Shown here in pieces: positions 35,350 through 43,089 of a stretch of DNA of 64,000 nt. The notes under the pieces were generated by a model that saw only the letters and a program-made list of their open reading frames with translations, did no database searches and was not told the DNA's origin. The position numbers and the translations under genes are program-made. Source of the DNA: Caldovatus sediminis (GTDB taxonomy: Bacteria; Pseudomonadota; Alphaproteobacteria; Acetobacterales; Acetobacteraceae). The stretch is taken from the NCBI RefSeq assembly GCF_014644455.1, contig NZ_BMKS01000003.1, forward strand, positions 151,930-215,929. The letters are read 5' to 3'. Position 1 is the first letter of the stretch; each line of letters opens with the position of its first letter.

Positions 35350-37005
35350 TCAGCGCGCCGGCGCGGCGAGCCCGGCGGCGGCCTTCAGCGCATCGGTGGT
35401 GTCGAAGTCGCGCAGCACGGCGTCCGAAGCCATCTCCACCTCGACCACCCGGTCCGCGTGGGTGCCGGCCAGGTGGCGGGCGCCGACGTCGCCAGTAATC
35501 GCCATCATCTCCGGCACGAACTCGCGGCTCCACAGCATCGGGTTGCCCTGCTTGCCGCGGAAGGTCGGCATGACGATGGCCCGGCCCTCTTCCGGGTCGA
35601 AGGCGGCGAGCAGCCGGTCGATCATCGCACCCGTGACCAGCGGCATGTCGCCGAGGCAGACCAGCACGCCCTCGGCGTCCGGCGGCAGGGCGCGCAGCCC
35701 GGCCTTGAGGCTGGCCGACAGGCCCTCGGCATAGTCCTCCGCATGGGCGAACAGCACCGGTCGGCCGGTCAGCGCCTCCTCGATCCGCTCGCGCTCGTGG
35801 CCGGTGACGACGATCACCGGCCGGGCGTGCGAGGCGAGGACGTTGTCCACCACCCGCGCGATCATCGGCGTGCCGCGCGGGTCGGTGACGAGCAGCTTGT
35901 TGAGCGGCGCCATCCGCCGCGAGCGGCCGGCGGCGAGCACCAGCGCCGCGATCTTGCGGGGGCGCCGCGGCGCGGTGGCCGGCGGCGGGGTCTTCGGCGC
36001 CTGCTCACGCGGCAGCGGACGGGTCTCGATCTCCTTGAGCAGACCGCCGACCCCCATCGCCATGATGTCGCGCGGCGTCACCGGTACCCCCGCGAAGGTG
36101 CGCTGCAGCACCCAGTCGAAGCCGTTGAGCTTCGGGCTGCGCGCGCAGCCGGGCAGGACGAAGGCGGGGATGTCGCCGATGCGACCGGTGCAGATCAGGT
36201 TGCCGGGATCCACCGGCATGCCGAAATGCTCGACCGTCCCGCCCGCGCGCACGATCGCGGCCGGGCCCACGTCGCGCCGGTCCACCACCGCCGAGGCGCC
36301 GGCGATCAGCAGCAGCTCCGCCCCGGCGCGCTTCAGGCGGTTCAGGGCCTCGGCGACCGCCGGCTCCTCGTGACGGCAGCGCTCGACGGGAAGGAGCGTG
36401 CCGCGCAGCGCCTCGATCCGGGCGCGCGTGGCCTCCACCGCGCCTTCCATGATGCTCTCCTTGAGGCCGGGCAGCTCGGTGAAGACCAGGCCGACCTGGA
36501 GCGGGCGGAACGGCTTGACCTGCAACGCCGGCGCGCCGGAGCGGGCGACCGCCTCGACGACCTGGAGCACCGTGCCGGGGACGGCGAAGGGGATGATCTT
36601 GATCGTCGCGATCATCTCGCGCGGCTCGACCACCGCGTAGGGCGGCAGCGTGGCGACGGTGACCGACTCGTCCACCGCGTTGATGCGGTCGATCCTTCGG
36701 GCGTCGAGGACGAGCAGGCCGGCCGTCTCGGCGAACAGGTTGACCCGGCCGGTCGAGGCGCGGGAGCGGGCGACGAGCGGCGCGCGCAGCGCCTCGGCCA
36801 CGCGATCGGCGGCCTCGTCCTCCGGGACGTCGCCGGTCTCGAGGCGGGCGGCGACGACCTCGCGCCGGCCGGCCTCGCGCAGCGCCGTCAGCGCGCCCTC
36901 GTCGAGCACGGAACCCTTCTTGATGACGCGGCCGCCGGGCAGCCGGACCGTATGGGCGAGGATGGCGCCACGCGCTTCCTCGAGCGGCGTGGGACCGAAG
37001 ATCAT
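35350..37005 (-). CDS. Molybdopterin-binding / NTP-transferase (MobA-like) fusion protein
   Basis: 551-residue two-domain protein. The N-terminal region (about 1-330) is a molybdopterin-binding MoeA/MogA-like domain, with PLEEARGAILAHTVRLPGGR and the substrate loop AELLLIAGASAVVDRRDVGP. A Pro/Ala-rich linker at about 345-362 leads to a nucleotidyltransferase domain of the MobA-like type, starting IAALVLAAGRSRRMAPLNKLL and containing VLVCLGDMPLVTGAMIDRLL and GKQGNPMLWSREF. Such proteins are found with CO dehydrogenase/xanthine dehydrogenase accessory genes and probably make the cytosine-dinucleotide form of molybdopterin. It is last in the Cox-type operon, with an ATGA overlap upstream. Confidence 0.93.
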   Translation of the reverse strand: MIFGPTPLEEARGAILAHTVRLPGGRVIKKGSVLDEGALTALREAGRREVVAARLETGDVPEDEAADRVAEALRAPLVARSRASTGRVNLFAETAGLLVLDARRIDRINAVDESVTVATLPPYAVVEPREMIATIKIIPFAVPGTVLQVVEAVARSGAPALQVKPFRPLQVGLVFTELPGLKESIMEGAVEATRARIEALRGTLLPVERCRHEEPAVAEALNRLKRAGAELLLIAGASAVVDRRDVGPAAIVRAGGTVEHFGMPVDPGNLICTGRIGDIPAFVLPGCARSPKLNGFDWVLQRTFAGVPVTPRDIMAMGVGGLLKEIETRPLPREQAPKTPPPATAPRRPRKIAALVLAAGRSRRMAPLNKLLVTDPRGTPMIARVVDNVLASHARPVIVVTGHERERIEEALTGRPVLFAHAEDYAEGLSASLKAGLRALPPDAEGVLVCLGDMPLVTGAMIDRLLAAFDPEEGRAIVMPTFRGKQGNPMLWSREFVPEMMAITGDVGARHLAGTHADRVVEVEMASDAVLRDFDTTDALKAAAGLAAPAR

Positions 37006-37724
37006 GCGGCTGCCGCCCCGGGGGCCGAAGCGGCCTTCTTCGTGGCGATCGCGGCGCCGCGGCGCACCGCGACGATCTCGGCGAGGATGGAGAGCGCGAT
37101 CTCGGGCGCCGTCACCGCCTCGATGTCGAGGCCCACGGGCGCGTGGATGCGCGCGATCGCGGCGTCGTCGAAGCCCATCTCCTTCAGCCGCGCGACGCGC
37201 TTGGCGTGGGTGCGCCGGCTGCCGAGCGCGCCGATGTAGAAGGCGGGGCTCTTCAGGGCGCGCTCCAGCGCGGGGTCGTCGAGCTTCGGGTCGTGGGTGA
37301 GGGTGACGACCGCGGTGCGCGCGTCGGGGCGCAGCGCGTCCATCGCCTCGTCGGGCCAGTCGGTGGAGAGGGTGACGCCCTCGAAGCGCTCCTCGGTGGC
37401 GAAGGCGCGGCGCGGGTCCACGACGGTGACGGCGAAGCCGAGCCGCGCCGCCATCGGCACCAGCGCCTGGGCGACGTGCACGGCGCCGACGACGATGAGG
37501 CGCAGCGGCGGGTTGTGCGGGTGGACGAACCAGGGCTCGCCGTCGAGGCTCACCGTGCGCGCCGTGTCGTCGCGCAGCGCCGCCGCCGCGGCCTCGGCGA
37601 GCGCGCCCGGGCAGGCGTCGTCGGGCCAGAGGCACTGTCGGCCGTCGGTGAGGCGCGTCAGCAGCGCCACCGGCCGGCCGGCGTCGCGGTCGGCGAGCAG
37701 GCGCTGGAGGATCTCCGGCGTCAC
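37002..37724 (-). CDS. XdhC family protein, C-terminal (Rossmann) part
   Basis: 240-residue XdhC/CoxF-like protein, a chaperone that delivers or sulfurates the molybdenum cofactor of xanthine dehydrogenase-type enzymes. The N-terminal section is short; the Rossmann-type domain starts LRLIVVGAVHVAQALVPMA, and the C-terminus has PAFYIGALGSRRTHAKRVARL and IHAPVGLDIEAVTAPEIALSI, diagnostic for XdhC_C. The GTG at 37724 overlaps the stop of the small XdhC gene (GTGA). The canonical XdhC protein is thus encoded as two cistrons here, a split also seen in other cox/xdh clusters. Confidence 0.91.
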   Translation of the reverse strand: MTPEILQRLLADRDAGRPVALLTRLTDGRQCLWPDDACPGALAEAAAAALRDDTARTVSLDGEPWFVHPHNPPLRLIVVGAVHVAQALVPMAARLGFAVTVVDPRRAFATEERFEGVTLSTDWPDEAMDALRPDARTAVVTLTHDPKLDDPALERALKSPAFYIGALGSRRTHAKRVARLKEMGFDDAAIARIHAPVGLDIEAVTAPEIALSILAEIVAVRRGAAIATKKAASAPGAAAA

Positions 37725-38047
37725 GACAGCTTCTCCACGAAGACCTTGAGCTTGCCGCCGCAGGCGAGGCCGACCTCCCAGGCGCGCTCGTCGCTGATGC
37801 CGAAGTCGAGGAGCTGCGGCGCGCCGGTCGCCATGGTCTGCTTCGCCGCGTCCGCGACCGCGCCCTCGATGCAGCCGCCGGAGACGCTGCCGGCCATCCG
37901 CCCGCTCGCCGTCACCGCCATGCGGCTGCCGGCGGGGCGGGGCGAGCTGCCCCAGGTCTCGACCACCGTCGCCAGCGCCACCGTCTCGCCCGCGGCGCGC
38001 CACGCGGCGGCGGTGCCGAGGACGTCCTCCGAATCGCGGCTGGTCAT
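37721..38047 (-). CDS. XdhC family protein, N-terminal (CoxI) domain
   Basis: 108-residue protein consisting only of the XdhC_CoxI domain. TVALATVVETWGSSPRPAGS and the strongly conserved SGRMAGSVSGGCIEGAV are visible, with a GLACGGKLKVFVEK ending that carries the Cys-Gly-Gly motif. It pairs with the following C-terminal XdhC protein, overlapping it by GTGA, and follows coxE through an ATGA overlap. Expected role: molybdenum-cofactor handling for a hydroxylase together with its partner. It is complete for a single-domain member rather than a truncation. Confidence 0.92.
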   Translation of the reverse strand: MTSRDSEDVLGTAAAWRAAGETVALATVVETWGSSPRPAGSRMAVTASGRMAGSVSGGCIEGAVADAAKQTMATGAPQLLDFGISDERAWEVGLACGGKLKVFVEKLS

Positions 38048-39273
38048 GCGGCCCTCCTCCCGTGCCCGGCGCGCGGCTGCGGAGCGGAGAGGCTCTCGAC
38101 CAGCGCGCGCAGGCTTTCAAGGTTGTGCACCGGGCGGAACTCGTCCACATGGGGGAGCATCGCCCGGATGCCCTGGGATTTGGGTTGAAATCCCGCGTAG
38201 CGCAACAGCGGGTTCAGCCAGATCAGCCGCCGGCAGGAGCGGCGCAGCCGGTCGGTGGCCTCGGCGAGGCCCTTGGCGCCCTCGCGATCGAGCCCGTCGG
38301 TGATCAGCAGCACGACCGCCCCCTGGCCGAGCACGCGCCGGGCCCAGAGGCGGTTGAACCGGGCGAGCGACTCGCCGATCCGCGTGCCGCCGGACCAGTC
38401 GGGGACGGCCTGCGCGACCAGCTCGAAGGCCACCTCGGCGTCGCGATGGCGGAGCTGGCGCGTGACGTTGGTGAGCCGGGTGCCGAACAGGAAAGTGTGG
38501 ACGCGGTCGCGCTCGTTCGTCACGGCGTGCAGGAAGTGCAGCAGGATCTGCGCGTAGCGCGCCATCGAGCCCGAGATGTCGCAGAGCGCGACCAGCGGCG
38601 GCGGGCGGGTGATCCGCCGGCGCCGCGCCAGGGCCAGGATCTCGCCGCCCTCGCGCAGGGAGGCGCGGATGGTGGCGCGCAGGTCCAGGCCGGGGCCGGA
38701 GGGATCGGCGCGGAAGCGGCGGGTGCGGCGCTCGTCGAGCGGCAGGACGAGCCGGCGGATCTCGCGCTTCGCCTCGGCGATCTCGGCCGCGCCCATCGCC
38801 TCGAAGTCCATCCTCTGCAGGCGCTCGCGGTCCGAGACGGTGAGGGTCGCCTCGCGCAGCGGGGGAGGGGGCTCGGCCTCCTGCGGCGGCGGGCGGGGCC
38901 GGTCGGCCATCAGCGCCTCGGCGACGCGGCGGGCGGTGGGCGGCGGGCGCTCCTTCTCCTTGCCGGCCTCGAACAGTTCGAGCGCGGCGGCCTGGCGGCC
39001 GGCCTCGGGGCTGCGCCAGAACAGGGTGAAGGCCTGGTCGAACAGCTCGAAATGCTCGCGGCGGTGGACCATGACGGCGCGCAGCGCGCCATGCACCTGC
39101 GCGCGGTCGGCGAGGTCCACGATCGTCAGCGCCTCGGCCGCGGCGATCGCCTCGCCGGCGCCGACGGGCAGGCCGGCGCGGCGCAGCAGCCGGACGAAGG
39201 CGAGGAGGTTCGAGACCAGGTGACCGCCGCCGACCCCCGCCCGGACGATCGCGCTGGCCGGGGCGAGGGCCAT
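38044..39273 (-). CDS. coxE: VWA domain-containing protein, CoxE-like
   Basis: 409-residue CoxE-family protein. The N-terminal region (about 15-190) is the CoxE-type helical module, beginning SNLLAFVRLLRRAGLPVGAG. The von Willebrand A-like C-terminal domain has the metal-ion-dependent adhesion site DISGSM (Asp at about residue 232, Ser at 234 and 236), GGTRIGESLARFNR and LLITDGLDREGAKG. CoxE works with the AAA ATPase CoxD in assembling the [CuSMoO2] or related active site of CO dehydrogenase-type enzymes. The ATG at 39273 overlaps the stop of coxD by 1 nt (TGATG). Confidence 0.93.
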   Translation of the reverse strand: MALAPASAIVRAGVGGGHLVSNLLAFVRLLRRAGLPVGAGEAIAAAEALTIVDLADRAQVHGALRAVMVHRREHFELFDQAFTLFWRSPEAGRQAAALELFEAGKEKERPPPTARRVAEALMADRPRPPPQEAEPPPPLREATLTVSDRERLQRMDFEAMGAAEIAEAKREIRRLVLPLDERRTRRFRADPSGPGLDLRATIRASLREGGEILALARRRRITRPPPLVALCDISGSMARYAQILLHFLHAVTNERDRVHTFLFGTRLTNVTRQLRHRDAEVAFELVAQAVPDWSGGTRIGESLARFNRLWARRVLGQGAVVLLITDGLDREGAKGLAEATDRLRRSCRRLIWLNPLLRYAGFQPKSQGIRAMLPHVDEFRPVHNLESLRALVESLSAPQPRAGHGRRAA

Positions 39274-40172
39274 CAGGCGGCCGCCGCCTGCTTCGCCTCG
39301 GCCACCAGCCTCGCCGCCTCGGCGCCGCGCAGCCTGGCGATGTCGTCCTGGTACTTGAGCAGCGCGCCGAGCGTCTCGTCCACCGCGGCCGGCTCCAGCT
39401 CCTGGCGGTCGAGGGCGTTGAGCGCCATCGCCCAGTCGATCGTCTCCGCCACGCCCGGCAGCTTGAAGTAGTCCCCCTGCCGCAGGCGCTGGACGAAGGC
39501 GACGACCTCGGCGGAGAGCTTCTCCGGCACGTCGGGGGCGCGGATGCGCAGGATCGCCCGCTCGCGCGCCGCGTCCGGGTAGTCCACCCAGTGGTAGAGG
39601 CAGCGGCGGCGGATCGCGTCGTGCACCTCGCGCGTGCGGTTGGAGGTGATGACGACGACCGGCGGGACCTTCGCCTTGATCGTGCCGAGCTCCGGGATGG
39701 TGATCTGGAAGTCGGCGAGGATCTCGAGGAGGAAGGCCTCGAAGGGCTCGTCGGCGCGGTCGAGCTCGTCGATCAGCAGCACCGCCGGGTCGCCGTCCAG
39801 CGCCTGGAGCAGCGGCCGCTCCTGGAGGAAGCGCCGGTCGTAGATGCCGCGCTCGAGCGCCGCGCGGTCCTGGACCTCGCCGGTGGCCTCGGCGAGGCGG
39901 ATCGCCATGAGCTGGCGCGCGTGGTTCCACTCGTAGGCCGCGGCGGCGAGGTCCATGCCGTCGTAGCACTGCAGCCGCACCAGGCGGCGGGGGAGCTGCG
40001 CCGCCAGCACCTTGGCGATCTCGGTCTTGCCGGTGCCCGGCTCGCCCTCGAGGAACAGCGGCCGGCCCATGCGCAGCGCGAGATGCACCGTGGTGGCGAG
40101 GGCGCGGTCGGCGACGTAGCCGCCGGCGGCGAGCAGGCGCTGGGTCGCCTCGACCGTTGCGGGAAGCGCCAC
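39273..40172 (-). CDS. coxD: MoxR-family AAA+ ATPase, CoxD-like
   Basis: 299-residue MoxR-type AAA+ ATPase. Walker A GEPGTGKT is at about residues 43-50, Walker B is VLLIDELDRADEPFE, and sensor 1 is VVVITSNRTREVHDAIRRR, followed by the lid with WVDYPDAARERAILRIRAP. MoxR ATPases partner with VWA proteins to insert metals or remodel substrate enzymes. Next to coxE and coxG the assignment to CoxD is strong. It starts 4 nt after the coxG stop and is translationally coupled to coxE. No CO dehydrogenase structural gene is nearby. Confidence 0.94.
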   Translation of the reverse strand: MALPATVEATQRLLAAGGYVADRALATTVHLALRMGRPLFLEGEPGTGKTEIAKVLAAQLPRRLVRLQCYDGMDLAAAAYEWNHARQLMAIRLAEATGEVQDRAALERGIYDRRFLQERPLLQALDGDPAVLLIDELDRADEPFEAFLLEILADFQITIPELGTIKAKVPPVVVITSNRTREVHDAIRRRCLYHWVDYPDAARERAILRIRAPDVPEKLSAEVVAFVQRLRQGDYFKLPGVAETIDWAMALNALDRQELEPAAVDETLGALLKYQDDIARLRGAEAARLVAEAKQAAAA

Positions 40173-40176
40173 CGGG

Positions 40177-40935
40177 TCAGCCCACCACGAACAGCAGGAT
40201 CAGGATGATCAGCATCAGCACCGCGCCGATCCAGAACTGCATCGGCAGCCCGAAGGGCTCCATCGCGAAGAACAGCCGGAGCGGCCTCAGGTCGAAGGGC
40301 TCGGCCGGCGGCGGCGCGATCGCACCGGGGCGGGTGCCGGGCACCGGCGGCACGCCGTGCTGCGCGATCGGGCTGGCCGCGAGCCGCTCGCGGTCCGCAA
40401 GGTACTCGGTGTCGGTGCCGGGCACGGGCGTGACGCCGGCCGCCCCGGGCGCCTCCGCACCCGCCGCCGCGCCGGCGACCGCCACCGCCTCGGCCGGGGT
40501 GAGCAGACGGGCGAAGCGGTCGAAGAACTGGTCGGCCATCTGCCGGGCCGTGGAATCGATCAGCCGCGCGCCGAGCTGGGCCATCTTGCCGCCGACCTGG
40601 GCCTTCACCGCGTAGGTGAGCACCGTCTCGGCCGGGCCTTCCTCGCGCAGGGCGACGTCGGCGCCGCCCTTGGCGAAGCCCATCGCGCCGCCCTGGCCCT
40701 CGCCGACGATGGTGTAGGCGTTCGGCGGGTCGAGGTTCTCAAGGCGGACCTTGCCGGTGAACTTGGCCGACATGGGGCCGATCTTCACCGCCACGCGGGC
40801 GGAGAAGGAATCGTCGCCGGTCTTCTCGATCGATTCGCAGCCGGGGATGGAGGCGCGAAGCACCTCGGGGTCGTTCAGGGCCTCCCAGACGCGCTGGCGC
40901 GGCGCGGGGATGCGCCGCTCACCGGTCATCTCCAT
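40177..40935 (-). CDS. coxG: Carbon monoxide dehydrogenase subunit G-like SRPBCC protein
   Basis: 252-residue CoxG-like protein. The SRPBCC fold covers about residues 1-150, with MEMTGERRIPAPRQRVWEAL, PEVLRASIPGCESIEKTGDD and the C-terminal helix ARLIDSTARQMADQFFDRFA. After a Pro/Ala-rich linker, residues about 228-249 form a hydrophobic helix (FWIGAVLMLIILILLFVVG) as membrane anchor; CoxG recruits CO dehydrogenase to the cytoplasmic membrane in Oligotropha-type organisms. Two ATGs are close together. I chose 40935 because GGAGG lies 5 nt upstream and the protein then begins at the family consensus; the alternative is at 40947. Confidence 0.93.
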   Translation of the reverse strand: MEMTGERRIPAPRQRVWEALNDPEVLRASIPGCESIEKTGDDSFSARVAVKIGPMSAKFTGKVRLENLDPPNAYTIVGEGQGGAMGFAKGGADVALREEGPAETVLTYAVKAQVGGKMAQLGARLIDSTARQMADQFFDRFARLLTPAEAVAVAGAAAGAEAPGAAGVTPVPGTDTEYLADRERLAASPIAQHGVPPVPGTRPGAIAPPPAEPFDLRPLRLFFAMEPFGLPMQFWIGAVLMLIILILLFVVG

Positions 40936-41679
40936 GGTCGCCTCCATCTCGCGGCGCGGAACGACCTGCCGGCGGCGCCGTGGCGGGCGGCCGACCGCGA
41001 TCGCGCAGCATGTTCGGGCCGGACACTAGGGCGGCGGGACGGGCCCGGAAACCCCCCGACGGGCGCGATGGGCCGCGGGCATGGACACTTGCGGTTGCGC
41101 GGAGGTGCGTGCTGCGGTCGGGCGCCCCGGCTGGGCGCGGATCGCCGCGACAGGGCAGGAGCCTTTCGGCGCTGCGAGGCACGGCCGTGCCTGACTCCTT
41201 CGCAAAAGGGTGAAACCGTGGGACGCCGTGGCAGGCGCGGCGGAAGCGGGTCCGGTGGGCGCCGGGTTCGCCTCGGCCGCAAGGTCCCCGCCAGGGCCGG
41301 GTCGTGGACCGGCAGGCCGCTGCCCCTCCATGATCGGCGGCAGCACGCCGGACCAGGCGGGCGCGCGACCGTCGCCGGCGAAAGGCTCCGATCAAGACCG
41401 GCGCGGCGCCCGCGGGGTCGGAAGCCCGGCTACGCGAGGATGCGATCGCGCAGCCGCCCGCCGATCGCAACCGGCAGCCGCTCCGGCGCGGGGCTTCGCC
41501 GGACTCGGCTGCGTCGCGGACCCTGCCGCCGGCGGTCGACGATGCGCGGGGACCGGTCCCCGGCGCGCCGCCGGCCGCCGCGGCGCGGCCCGCGCGGCGG
41601 CGGTGCACTCGTGACGCTGCCGATCTTGGTGTAGGAGGGCCGGACGGGGCCCGATCCCGCTCCGGAGAACCGCGCAGGG
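40936..41679. other. Gene-free gap (744 bp) between divergent operons
   Basis: No gene supported; frames are Arg/Ala/Pro-rich and lack ribosome-binding sites. It separates the coxG operon from the plus-strand carrier gene and must hold promoters for both sides. A perfect 16-bp palindrome sits at 41177-41192 (listed separately), next to a locally less GC-rich patch at about 41197-41220. Confidence 0.5.
41177..41192. promoter_or_regulatory. Perfect 16-bp palindrome, possible operator
   Basis: AGGCACGGCCGTGCCT reads the same on both strands, with no mismatch over 16 bases. It lies in the long gap upstream of the carrier gene (start 41680) and behind coxG (start 40935). Such dyads bind dimeric regulators, but it could also be a chance GC-rich palindrome. 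Confidence 0.35.
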
Positions 41680-43089
41680 ATGTACTTCGCCGTGCTCGCG
41701 GCGGCCTCGTTGCCGCTTCTGGTCGCATCGCCCGCGCTCGGGGCGGAGACGGCCGCCGCGCATGGGGGCGGGCTGTCGCCCCTCTGGGGCCTCCCCTTCC
41801 TCGGCGTGCTGCTCTCGATCGCGCTGATGCCGCTCGCGGCGGGGCGGGTCTGGCACCACCATTACGGGAAGATCTCCGCCGGCTGGGCGGCGCTGTTCCT
41901 CGTGCCCTACGCCCTGGCGTTCGGGCCCGAGGCAGCGTGGGAGGAATTCGCCCACGTCCTGGTGCAGGAATACCTGCCGTTCCTTGCCCTGCTGCTCGCG
42001 CTCTACACCACGGGCGGGGGTGTCCTGCTGCGCGGCACGCTGGTCGGCACCCCGGCGGTCAACACCGCGCTGCTCGCCGCCGGCACGGCGCTGGCGAGCG
42101 TGATGGGCACGACCGGGGCCTCGATGGTGCTGATCCGGCCCGTGCTGCGAGCGAACGCGTTCCGGCGGCGCAAGACCCACACCTTCGTCTTCTTCATCTT
42201 CCTCGTCAGCAACATCGGCGGGAGCCTGACGCCGCTCGGCGACCCCCCGCTCTATCTCGGCTTCCTCAAGGGGGTCGCGTTCTTCTGGCCGACCACGCAC
42301 CTGTTCGACAAGTTCCTGTTCTGCGCGGCGCTGCTGCTGGCGGCGCACCACGCGCTGGACCGCCTTGCCTGGGCGCGGGAGCGCCCGGTGCCCCCGCCGC
42401 GCAGCGCGGCGCGCGAGGCGCTGCGCGTCGAAGGCTGGCTGAACGTCGCACTGCTCGGCGCCGTGCTGGCGGTGGTGCTCGGCATGGGGGTGGCGCCGCT
42501 CCGCGAGGTCTCGGTGCTGGGGCAGCCGATCGGGCTCGAGCGGCTGCTCGGCATGGCTGCCTTCCTCGCCATCACGCTGCTCTCGGTGCGCCTCACGCCG
42601 GCCCGACTGCGCGAGCAGAACGGATTCTCCTGGGGGGCGATGGCGGAAGTGGCGAAGCTCTTCGCCGCCATCTTCGTGACCATGGCGCCGGTGCTCGCCA
42701 TCCTGCGCGCGGGGCGCGAGGGGGCGGCCGCGGGCCTCGTCGCCCTGACCTCGACGCCGGAAGGCCAGCCCATCCCGGCGACCTACTTCTGGCTGACGGG
42801 GGCGCTCTCCTCCTTCCTCGATAACGCGCCGACCTACCTAGTGTTCTTCAACCTGGCGGGCGGCGACCCGGCCCGGCTGATGACGCAGGGCGCGCCGACC
42901 CTGGCTGCCATCTCGTGCGGCGCGGTGTTCATGGGGGCCAACAGCTACATCGGCAACGCGCCGAACTTCATGGTCAAGGCGATCGTCGAGGAGCAGGGGG
43001 TGCGGATGCCCTCGTTCTTCGGCTATTGCGCCTGGGCCGCGGCGGTGCTGATCCCGCTCTTCGTCCTCCTCACCCTGCTGTTCTTCTGA
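41680..43089 (+). CDS. Sodium:proton antiporter / citrate-type carrier family protein
   Basis: 469-residue integral membrane protein with about eleven to twelve hydrophobic segments. The N-terminus (MYFAVLAAASLPLLVASPALGAE) resembles a signal or first helix. SLTPLGDPPLYLGFLKG and FLDNAPTYLVFFNLAGG are the re-entrant, Pro-containing signatures of ion transporter superfamily proteins annotated as sodium:proton antiporters or putative citrate carriers, and GTTGASMVLIRPVLRAN is also conserved. Direction and substrate cannot be resolved. It is followed after 16 bp by a methylisocitrate lyase-like gene; the two probably share an operon, so a tricarboxylate or C4/C5 acid substrate is an inference worth noting. 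Confidence 0.87.
   Translation: MYFAVLAAASLPLLVASPALGAETAAAHGGGLSPLWGLPFLGVLLSIALMPLAAGRVWHHHYGKISAGWAALFLVPYALAFGPEAAWEEFAHVLVQEYLPFLALLLALYTTGGGVLLRGTLVGTPAVNTALLAAGTALASVMGTTGASMVLIRPVLRANAFRRRKTHTFVFFIFLVSNIGGSLTPLGDPPLYLGFLKGVAFFWPTTHLFDKFLFCAALLLAAHHALDRLAWARERPVPPPRSAAREALRVEGWLNVALLGAVLAVVLGMGVAPLREVSVLGQPIGLERLLGMAAFLAITLLSVRLTPARLREQNGFSWGAMAEVAKLFAAIFVTMAPVLAILRAGREGAAAGLVALTSTPEGQPIPATYFWLTGALSSFLDNAPTYLVFFNLAGGDPARLMTQGAPTLAAISCGAVFMGANSYIGNAPNFMVKAIVEEQGVRMPSFFGYCAWAAAVLIPLFVLLTLLFF

Follow-up and report, generated by a model that had tools for sequence, protein, structure and literature searches.

An orphan form II cox accessory operon in Caldovatus sediminis and its likely role as a maturation hub for many large subunits

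The window studied here is a stretch of 64,000 nucleotides from the Caldovatus sediminis contig NZ_BMKS01000003.1 (positions 151,930 to 215,929). In it, six genes are located on the minus strand in the order coxG-moxR-coxE-xdhC(N)-xdhC(C)-MocA fusion (Table 1). The frame check shows all six to be intact with no internal stops, joined by four overlaps and one 4-base gap; the overlap is 1 base between moxR and coxE, and 4 bases at each of the next three junctions. An earlier note on this DNA had described six overlapping or near-overlapping minus-strand genes in this order, which is borne out by the intact frames and the matched domains.

Table 1. Features of the accessory operon and its upstream side (positions in the window)
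Feature	Position	Strand	Details
coxG	40177..40947	-	256 aa; CoxG/SRPBCC domain; PF06240 3e-39
MoxR-type AAA ATPase (CoxD-like)	39273..40172	-	299 aa, GTG start; AAA_5 3.9e-11
CoxE, VWA-domain protein	38044..39273	-	409 aa; PF05762 (VWA_CoxE) 3.8e-73
XdhC N-terminal half (XdhC_CoxI)	37721..38047	-	108 aa; PF02625 1.8e-28; 4-base overlap with coxE
XdhC C-terminal Rossmann half (XdhC_C)	37002..37724	-	240 aa, GTG start; PF13478 1e-45; 4-base overlap
MocA-like nucleotidyltransferase fusion	35350..37005	-	551 aa; NTP_transf_3 3.2e-37, residues 354-516; 4-base overlap
coxG/moxR junction	40173..40176	.	site of coxS-coxL-coxM in outgroup L104, of coxS-coxM in relative G028
Divergent CitMHS_2-family transporter	41680..43089	+	PF16980 3.9e-174

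The Pfam scores of COXG, VWA_CoxE, XdhC_CoxI, XdhC_C and NTP_transf_3 are well above the cut-offs, while the MoxR protein matches NCBIfam MadB_ATPase with 2.6e-79, under the family cut-off. In CoxG, the domain and a hydrophobic C-terminus are both present, residues 238-256 being the most hydrophobic 19-residue stretch (mean KD 3.0) and a probable membrane anchor. The last gene had been described as a molybdopterin-binding/nucleotidyltransferase fusion. Its nucleotidyltransferase part matches NTP_transf_3; against the TIGR03310 equivalog (MocA) the protein scores 145 bits, below the cut-off of 186. The N-terminal half has no Pfam match, and none among the best 25 of 28 NCBIfam matches. The label "molybdopterin-binding" for this half is supported only by the annotation of Microvirga, in which an XdhC pair adjoins two distinct genes, one for a "molybdopterin-binding protein" and one for a "nucleotidyltransferase". 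The fusion protein of Caldovatus aquaticus is 91% identical to that of the window. No convincing gene is found between coxG and the transporter at 41680, a distance of 732 bases from the first ATG of coxG and 744 from the second, in agreement with the empty 744 bp reported before.

MoxR, VWA-CoxE, XdhC-family and CoxG genes are found together, and the operon corresponds to the accessory part of a cox cluster of form II (xanthine-oxidase family). No match to the large subunit (L), the iron-sulfur subunit (S) or the FAD subunit (M) occurs in the window's stretch, which holds neither a linked coxS-coxL-coxM set nor an xdhA-xdhB cluster to go with xdhC. The absence of structural genes described in the earlier note is true of this stretch; in the genome the set is present elsewhere, coxSLM being located on contig C2. 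That note had also left open which enzyme is served, and here the outgroups decide: coxS-coxL-coxM lies directly upstream of moxR-coxE-xdhC-xdhC-mocA at L098, L102 and L104 (two loci from Azospirillum, one from an alphaproteobacterial MAG), and the L proteins of L094, L098, L102 and L104 fall together with the host L012 in one 14-row lineage of the tree (support 100/98). L012 is the L gene on C2, in the order S-L-M and with an AYRGAGR loop, so the orthologous SLM enzyme is present in the genome. Since the operon-linked L of the outgroups is orthologous to L012, the ancestrally served enzyme is identified. Form I CO dehydrogenase is rejected as the client: its motif, which the note had proposed to look for, is missing at all ten own L loci, and the AYxCSFR loop is absent from all frames of these loci as well as from the 78 tree rows. 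The separation of the operon from structural genes recurs in many relatives, and structural genes occur in 5 of 80 related loci over the sequence covered (59 of the 80 loci are longer than 15 kb). An assembly gap is also rejected as the reason for the missing genes, because coxG abuts moxR without them in many relatives, among them one- and four-contig genomes (L191, L190).

By profile matches, the host genome has 10 L genes against 4 S and 3 M, and six of the L genes have no S/M set of their own. These six further L genes without S/M partners lay beyond the view of the earlier note. Homologs of the operon proteins are absent within about 9-10 kb on either side of the ten L loci (on one side only for L013, which is near a contig end), which answers the question, raised in that note, of whether the L genes have accessory genes of their own. 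L017 is rejected as a truly partnerless L, its same-genus ortholog L136 being arranged M-S-L; the matching host M-S pair is on contig C4, with domain identities of 80% and 93%. Comparison of four own orphan form II L genes with their same-genus orthologs gives dN/dS of 0.17-0.44, and L014, L018 and L019, which were scanned, each carry all three Pfam domains of the L subunit. In the five L016-type proteins, Gln takes the place of the catalytic Glu, so that some of the orphans may be inactive as hydroxylases. Outside the operon, a single host gene scores as XdhC above the cut-off; it stands alone and unlinked on contig C9 and could serve some L proteins. A second MoxR/CoxE pair (C3, near 262 kb) is set aside, since neither XdhC nor structural genes adjoin it.

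Ten genomes are examined in detail. All 39 form II L genes outside the L012 lineage (39/39) lack a neighbouring S or M over the flank read, which in relatives covers about 4.5 kb on either side of the matched domain and less at some contig ends, and 34 of the 39 keep the catalytic Glu. Overall, 48 of 91 L loci are orphans (48 of 86 when only the ten genomes are counted), L181 being included though it is near a contig start. The 78 tree rows are the 91 loci minus 13, namely L021 and L173-L182 of IorB type and the partial L101 and L166. The orphan L are united in a single clade only by the careful tree (91/94, below that tree's own star), while the quick 78-row tree places the L012 lineage among them. 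Orthologous orphan sets extend over several genera. The reverse situation, an L012-matching S-M pair with no adjoining L, is found in five relatives. In G028 the cluster reads coxG-S-M-moxR-coxE-xdhC-xdhC-mocA with L missing, and its L012-type L is unlinked from the operon, as in six others; in G002, G004, G059 and G077, of which G002 and G077 belong to one genus, the same S-M type has no L over about 7-10 kb on either side. G077 (5 contigs, listed as 100% complete) has 6 L, 5 S and 5 M: four L have their own S/M, so that the one remaining S-M pair is left with two L of the orphan clade, an L012-type L being absent.

Besides L, no partner gene common to all members is found in five orphan sets (L014, L015, L016, L018 and L019 types), though the same test recovers, as a control, the regions of S and M next to most orthologs of L012. 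An AcrB-type pump accompanies 5 of 8 L014-type genes and one other gene 2 of 8; one gene is found with 1 of 8 of the L018 type; for the L019 type three genes each accompany 2 of 4 members and two others 1 of 4, and L016- and L015-type neighbourhoods have nothing in common but L. The L020-type set (n=2) is outside the five sets judged. Family-wide, an excess of at least two L over S occurs in 45 of 49 genomes with the fusion gene versus 2 of 31 without it. These counts over 80 genomes are raw for phylogeny and genome size; the fusion gene is taken as present above 250 bits, a threshold set in this analysis, with fragmented matches and those at contig ends included (G008, G018, G022, G042, G068), and split matches make the L counts too high (in one set, 81 rows stand for 76 genes). 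Against the association, G039 shows 8 L matches and G067 shows 10, both without a fusion gene over the threshold, and CoxE is absent in the former and weakly matched in the latter; both are draft assemblies in which gaps are possible.

These results suggest, rather probably in our view, that one maturation operon and one shared S-M pair serve many interchangeable L subunits. The suggestion draws on the linkage in outgroups, the orthology of L012, the surplus of L genes in the host, the partnerless L and lone S-M pairs of the relatives, the inventory of G077, the family-wide contrast, the dN/dS ratios and the neighbour test without a common partner. From the gene content and conservation observed, the operon is likely a hub that matures many L subunits, acting as a general maturation and docking unit; that one S-M pair is physically shared among the orphan L proteins we infer from gene counts, orthology and linkage. 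With roles taken from relatives, the MocA-like enzyme would produce the cytosine form of the molybdenum cofactor, the XdhC halves would hold the sulfurated cofactor and place it in the enzyme, MoxR and CoxE would activate the folded apoenzyme in an ATP-driven step, and CoxG would dock the enzyme at the membrane, where it would reduce quinone. One client would be the coxSLM enzyme of contig C2; others, most likely, are five or more scattered form II L subunits without S/M, which would borrow the single form II S-M pair, so that many substrate heads may be supported by one electron-transfer pair and one maturation operon. The full picture, a modular molybdenum hydroxylase with one S-M pair, one maturation/docking operon and at least five interchangeable, unlinked form II L subunits per cell, we hold with even confidence for and against.

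By plain relocation, the operon would serve only the host coxSLM on C2, and the orphan L would use something else or be non-hydroxylases. This agrees with the orthology of the operon-linked outgroup L to L012, and with the finding of both the fusion gene and the L012-type S-M pair in 10 of the 10 genomes examined in detail. However, an L012-type L is missing from G077 although the operon and the S-M pair are present there, the S-M pair of G028 lies within the operon and apart from its L012-type L, and the host offers the orphans only the lone C9 XdhC and a MoxR/CoxE pair without XdhC, so that we regard relocation as unlikely. It is still less probable that the orphan L are matured here and act without S/M, through another electron acceptor or in non-redox chemistry. 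Such single subunits would fit the conservation of the orphans, the complete L domains in L014, L018 and L019, the varied neighbourhoods and the lineage with Gln for Glu; but no alternative partner is common to any whole orphan set, and the S-M pairs kept without an L would be left unexplained. Decay of the orphan L as paralogs, with the operon a relic, can hardly be credited: losing partners often precedes gene loss, but the orphan sets are orthologous across several genera, dN/dS is 0.17-0.44 in the four same-genus comparisons of the host's form II orphans, the catalytic Glu is mostly retained, and the operon genes are intact.

Known systems share parts of this organization. On plasmid p3 of Azospirillum lipoferum 4B, S-L-M and two small genes are annotated ahead of MoxR, VWA, XdhC and XdhC. 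The accessory gene kinds and their order are the same here; unlike on p3, the S-L-M genes are carried by a different contig, and coxG directly adjoins moxR. In a Ruegeria coxG-S-L-M set, no MoxR, CoxE or XdhC is annotated within 7 kb, showing that the separation is not peculiar to this bacterial family. CoxF is an XdhC-like protein. For the form I CO dehydrogenase of Oligotropha carboxidovorans, the abstract of PMC4240915 assigns CoxD, CoxE and CoxF to maturation of the metal site and CoxG to recruitment to the membrane. The AAA ATPase CoxD, the VWA protein CoxE, CoxF and CoxG have their likes in our operon, whereas the L proteins here are form II with AYRGAGR-type loops lacking the Cys of the form I motif, and gene order and location differ. 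The ring-hydroxylating dioxygenases of sphingomonads have many catalytic heads and one common ferredoxin/reductase set, a similar working principle in an unrelated enzyme family and an analogy only.

CoxL-like proteins other than form I are very numerous: according to one survey, 119,560 CoxL-like proteins occur in 26,690 marine genomes, 1,924 of these proteins being form I, and the role of form II is termed unclear (PMC13203968); its activity is termed unresolved in another paper (PMC13240472). Among the matches listed from the open-access literature, no paper on orphan form II L subunits or a shared S-M pair is found. If many of the CoxL-like proteins that are not form I turn out to be orphan heads with an S-M core in common, physiology would be misread from gene counts, and activity should be sought with L, the common S-M pair and the maturation operon combined. 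A new substrate would then require only one new L gene, and losing one operon would silence several enzymes together. In addition, the CitMHS_2-family transporter adjoins coxG in 40 of the 80 related loci, coxG itself being present in 56.

The XdhC and MocA proteins, the former here in two halves and the latter a fusion, have generally known roles in maturation. The observation of an earlier note, that six minus-strand genes of Cox/XDH type form one tight operon, stands: all six reading frames are intact, moxR and coxE overlap by 1 base, the next three junctions overlap by 4 bases each, and coxG is separated from moxR by a gap of 4 bases. The C-terminal end of CoxG is a strongly hydrophobic stretch, as expected if it serves as a putative membrane anchor. 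PMC4240915 describes maturation of the CO dehydrogenase metal site by CoxD/E/F and membrane recruitment helped by CoxG, and PMC13240472, citing Kropp et al. 2025, presents CoxG as a quinone-binding membrane protein.

Coordinates of the operon and of further features in the host genome
Feature	Location	Coordinates	Strand	Remark
Maturation operon	window	40947 down to 35350	minus	order coxG, moxR, coxE, XdhC N-half, XdhC C-half, MocA-like fusion
CitMHS_2-family transporter	upstream of operon		divergent	
Two transporter-like stretches	L012	about 4.9-8.1 kb		upstream of host coxSLM
AcrB-type pump gene	L014	5872-9024		directly upstream of orphan L
L016	contig C5	241 kb		large subunit with Gln
Likely M-S pair of L017	contig C4, L106	about 7.0-8.8 kb		
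Stand-alone full-length XdhC	contig C9, L022	8843-9700		285 aa; no structural molybdenum genes adjoining
Second MoxR/CoxE-type pair	contig C3 near 262 kb, L023	about 10.0-12.3 kb		no XdhC or structural genes adjoining

The enzyme served had been called unknown; outgroup linkage and orthology tie the operon instead to a form II coxSLM enzyme encoded elsewhere in the genome, at the locus L012. Among the best 80 of 577 loci encoding relatives of the fusion protein, five (L094, L098, L101, L102 and L104) have structural genes (for the large, small or medium subunit: L, S or M) with the operon. The gene order of L098, L102 and L104 is S-L-M-moxR-coxE-xdhC-xdhC-mocA, with a CitMHS_2-family transporter and coxG preceding S in L104, and in L094 and L101 the L and M genes sit further upstream of moxR. 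At the other 75 loci the stretches examined show no L, S or M; 59 of the 80 are longer than 15 kb. A lineage of 14 rows joins the L proteins of L094, L098, L102 and L104 with host L012 (tree support 100/98); the host genes are on contig C2, arranged S-L-M as in form II. Since S-L-M is linked to the operon in the outgroups and their L groups with that of the host, the simplest ancestral unit would be coxG-S-L-M-moxR-coxE-xdhC-xdhC-mocA; from the outgroups we infer the direction, namely that the S-L-M part left the operon within the host's family.

In the host genome (4.80 Mb, 43 contigs, listed as 98.55% complete), family searches give eleven L matches in ten genes, with four S and three M. CoxG has one strong and one weak match, XdhC above the cut-off occurs in the operon and once on C9, and CoxE in the operon, on C3 and as a partial match on C9. 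On the proposed checks of the active-site motif and of dedicated maturation genes, the form I motif AYxCSFR is absent from all frames of the ten L loci, and none of the ten shows homologs of the operon proteins (E 1e-4; L013 is near a contig end). As the L loops are without the Cys of this motif, plain molybdenum hydroxylases, not Cu-Mo enzymes, would be the expected clients. Seven of the L genes have no S or M nearby; for L017 on C7, however, a likely M-S pair is found on C4, the C4 and C7 counterparts being linked as M-S-L in a same-genus genome (L136), so that six remain without a partner set (L014, L015, L016, L018, L019 and L020).

All L matches of nine relatives were taken with flanks (76 loci), and together with the ten host genes make 86. 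In the flanks fetched, 48 of these show neither S nor M (orphan L), 26 show the two together and 12 show S alone. In a quick tree of 78 rows, after 13 of the 91 were left out, the form II clade comprises 53 rows. A careful tree of these 53 and four outgroup rows divides form II between the L012 lineage of 14 rows, where 12 have S/M or M and 2 are orphans, and a group of 39 that are orphans throughout, with moderate support (91/94); the quick tree differs in nesting the L012 lineage among orphans. In both trees, the only L with S/M among the 53 rows are members of the L012 lineage. The orphans form several ortholog sets common to different genera, and 34 of the 39 retain the catalytic Glu; the five exceptions, with Gln, are the entire L016-type set (L016, L126, L130, L134 and L162), possibly a lineage of pseudoenzymes or of altered chemistry. 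The L016 loop reads AYRGAGK, ending in Lys. Within-genus dN/dS is 0.17 for L014, 0.18 for L018, 0.23 for L019 and 0.44 for L016, with 0.17 for L012; L015, having no same-genus ortholog in the set, gives 0.55 against L144 (58% identity, dS 0.7).

Across 80 family genomes, with the fusion gene scored as present above our own threshold of 250 bits, genomes having it show a median of 11 L versus 6 S matches, and those without it 2 versus 2. L exceeds S by at least two in 45 of 49 genomes with the fusion gene versus 2 of 31 without (Mann-Whitney p 2e-12, phylogeny and genome size ignored), the exceptions being G022, G059, G075 and G077 with the gene and G039 and G067 without. A CoxE search of nine genomes found no match in G039, G022, G075 and G055, and only a weak one in G067; G022 and G075, counted with the fusion gene, thus have no CoxE match, and one L match each, as G059 has genome-wide. 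An excess of conserved partnerless large subunits points to a shared, modular system, and makes the case more than an ordinary one.

Three orphan L proteins scanned (L014, L018 and L019) hold molybdenum-subunit domains only, so an iron-sulfur partner should, judging by domain content, be needed for passing electrons. The L012-type S-M pair would be the natural candidate, and we infer that orphan L physically share it. Such pairs are also kept without L. The operon of G028 reads coxG-S-M-moxR-coxE-xdhC-xdhC-mocA, with L gone from between, in a genome with eight L genes, seven of them orphan; L012-type S-M with no L in the fetched flanks also occur in G002, G004, G059 and G077 (S 85-91% and M 55-75% identical, over the domains, to the S and M of L012), G002 and G077 being of one genus. 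The most telling case is G077, which has six L, five S and five M, with four L having S and M of their own. Only one S-M pair and two orphan-clade L (L139 and L142) are left, with no L012-type L, so the leftover S-M and L must pair with each other if both are functional.

Asking which host-locus genes recur beside orthologs, we find no gene besides L common to all members of the L014-, L018-, L019-, L016- or L015-type sets; the L020 set, of two members only, yielded no result, and the L012 set, as positive control, gave back the S region at 7 of its 8 loci and the M region at 6. The AcrB-type pump gene is common to 5 of 8 loci orthologous to L014. The stretches just upstream of the host's coxSLM are shared by 6 of the 8 loci orthologous to L012; by their sequence they look like a peptide-type ABC transporter, which may hint at the substrate.

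Outside the family, a plasmid search with L018 (best 25 of 171 records listed, five examined; the plasmid gene table describes itself as incomplete) shows a lone L amid unrelated genes on an Azospirillum thermophilum plasmid. In Azospirillum lipoferum 4B the annotation has S-L-M linked, followed by two small genes and, after these, MoxR, VWA, XdhC and XdhC. In Microvirga, coxG-S-L-M-MoxR-VWA adjoins divergent XdhC, XdhC, molybdopterin-binding and nucleotidyltransferase genes; a second L there, lone at first sight, is accompanied by an M and an S. In Ruegeria, coxG-S-L-M stands with no MoxR, VWA or XdhC in the (incomplete) annotation up to 7 kb away. On a Neorhizobium petrolearium plasmid (L209), a UbiD gene stands between two L genes; one coxG-S-M set adjoins them and UbiX is nearby, an arrangement which suggests an aromatic-acid pathway.
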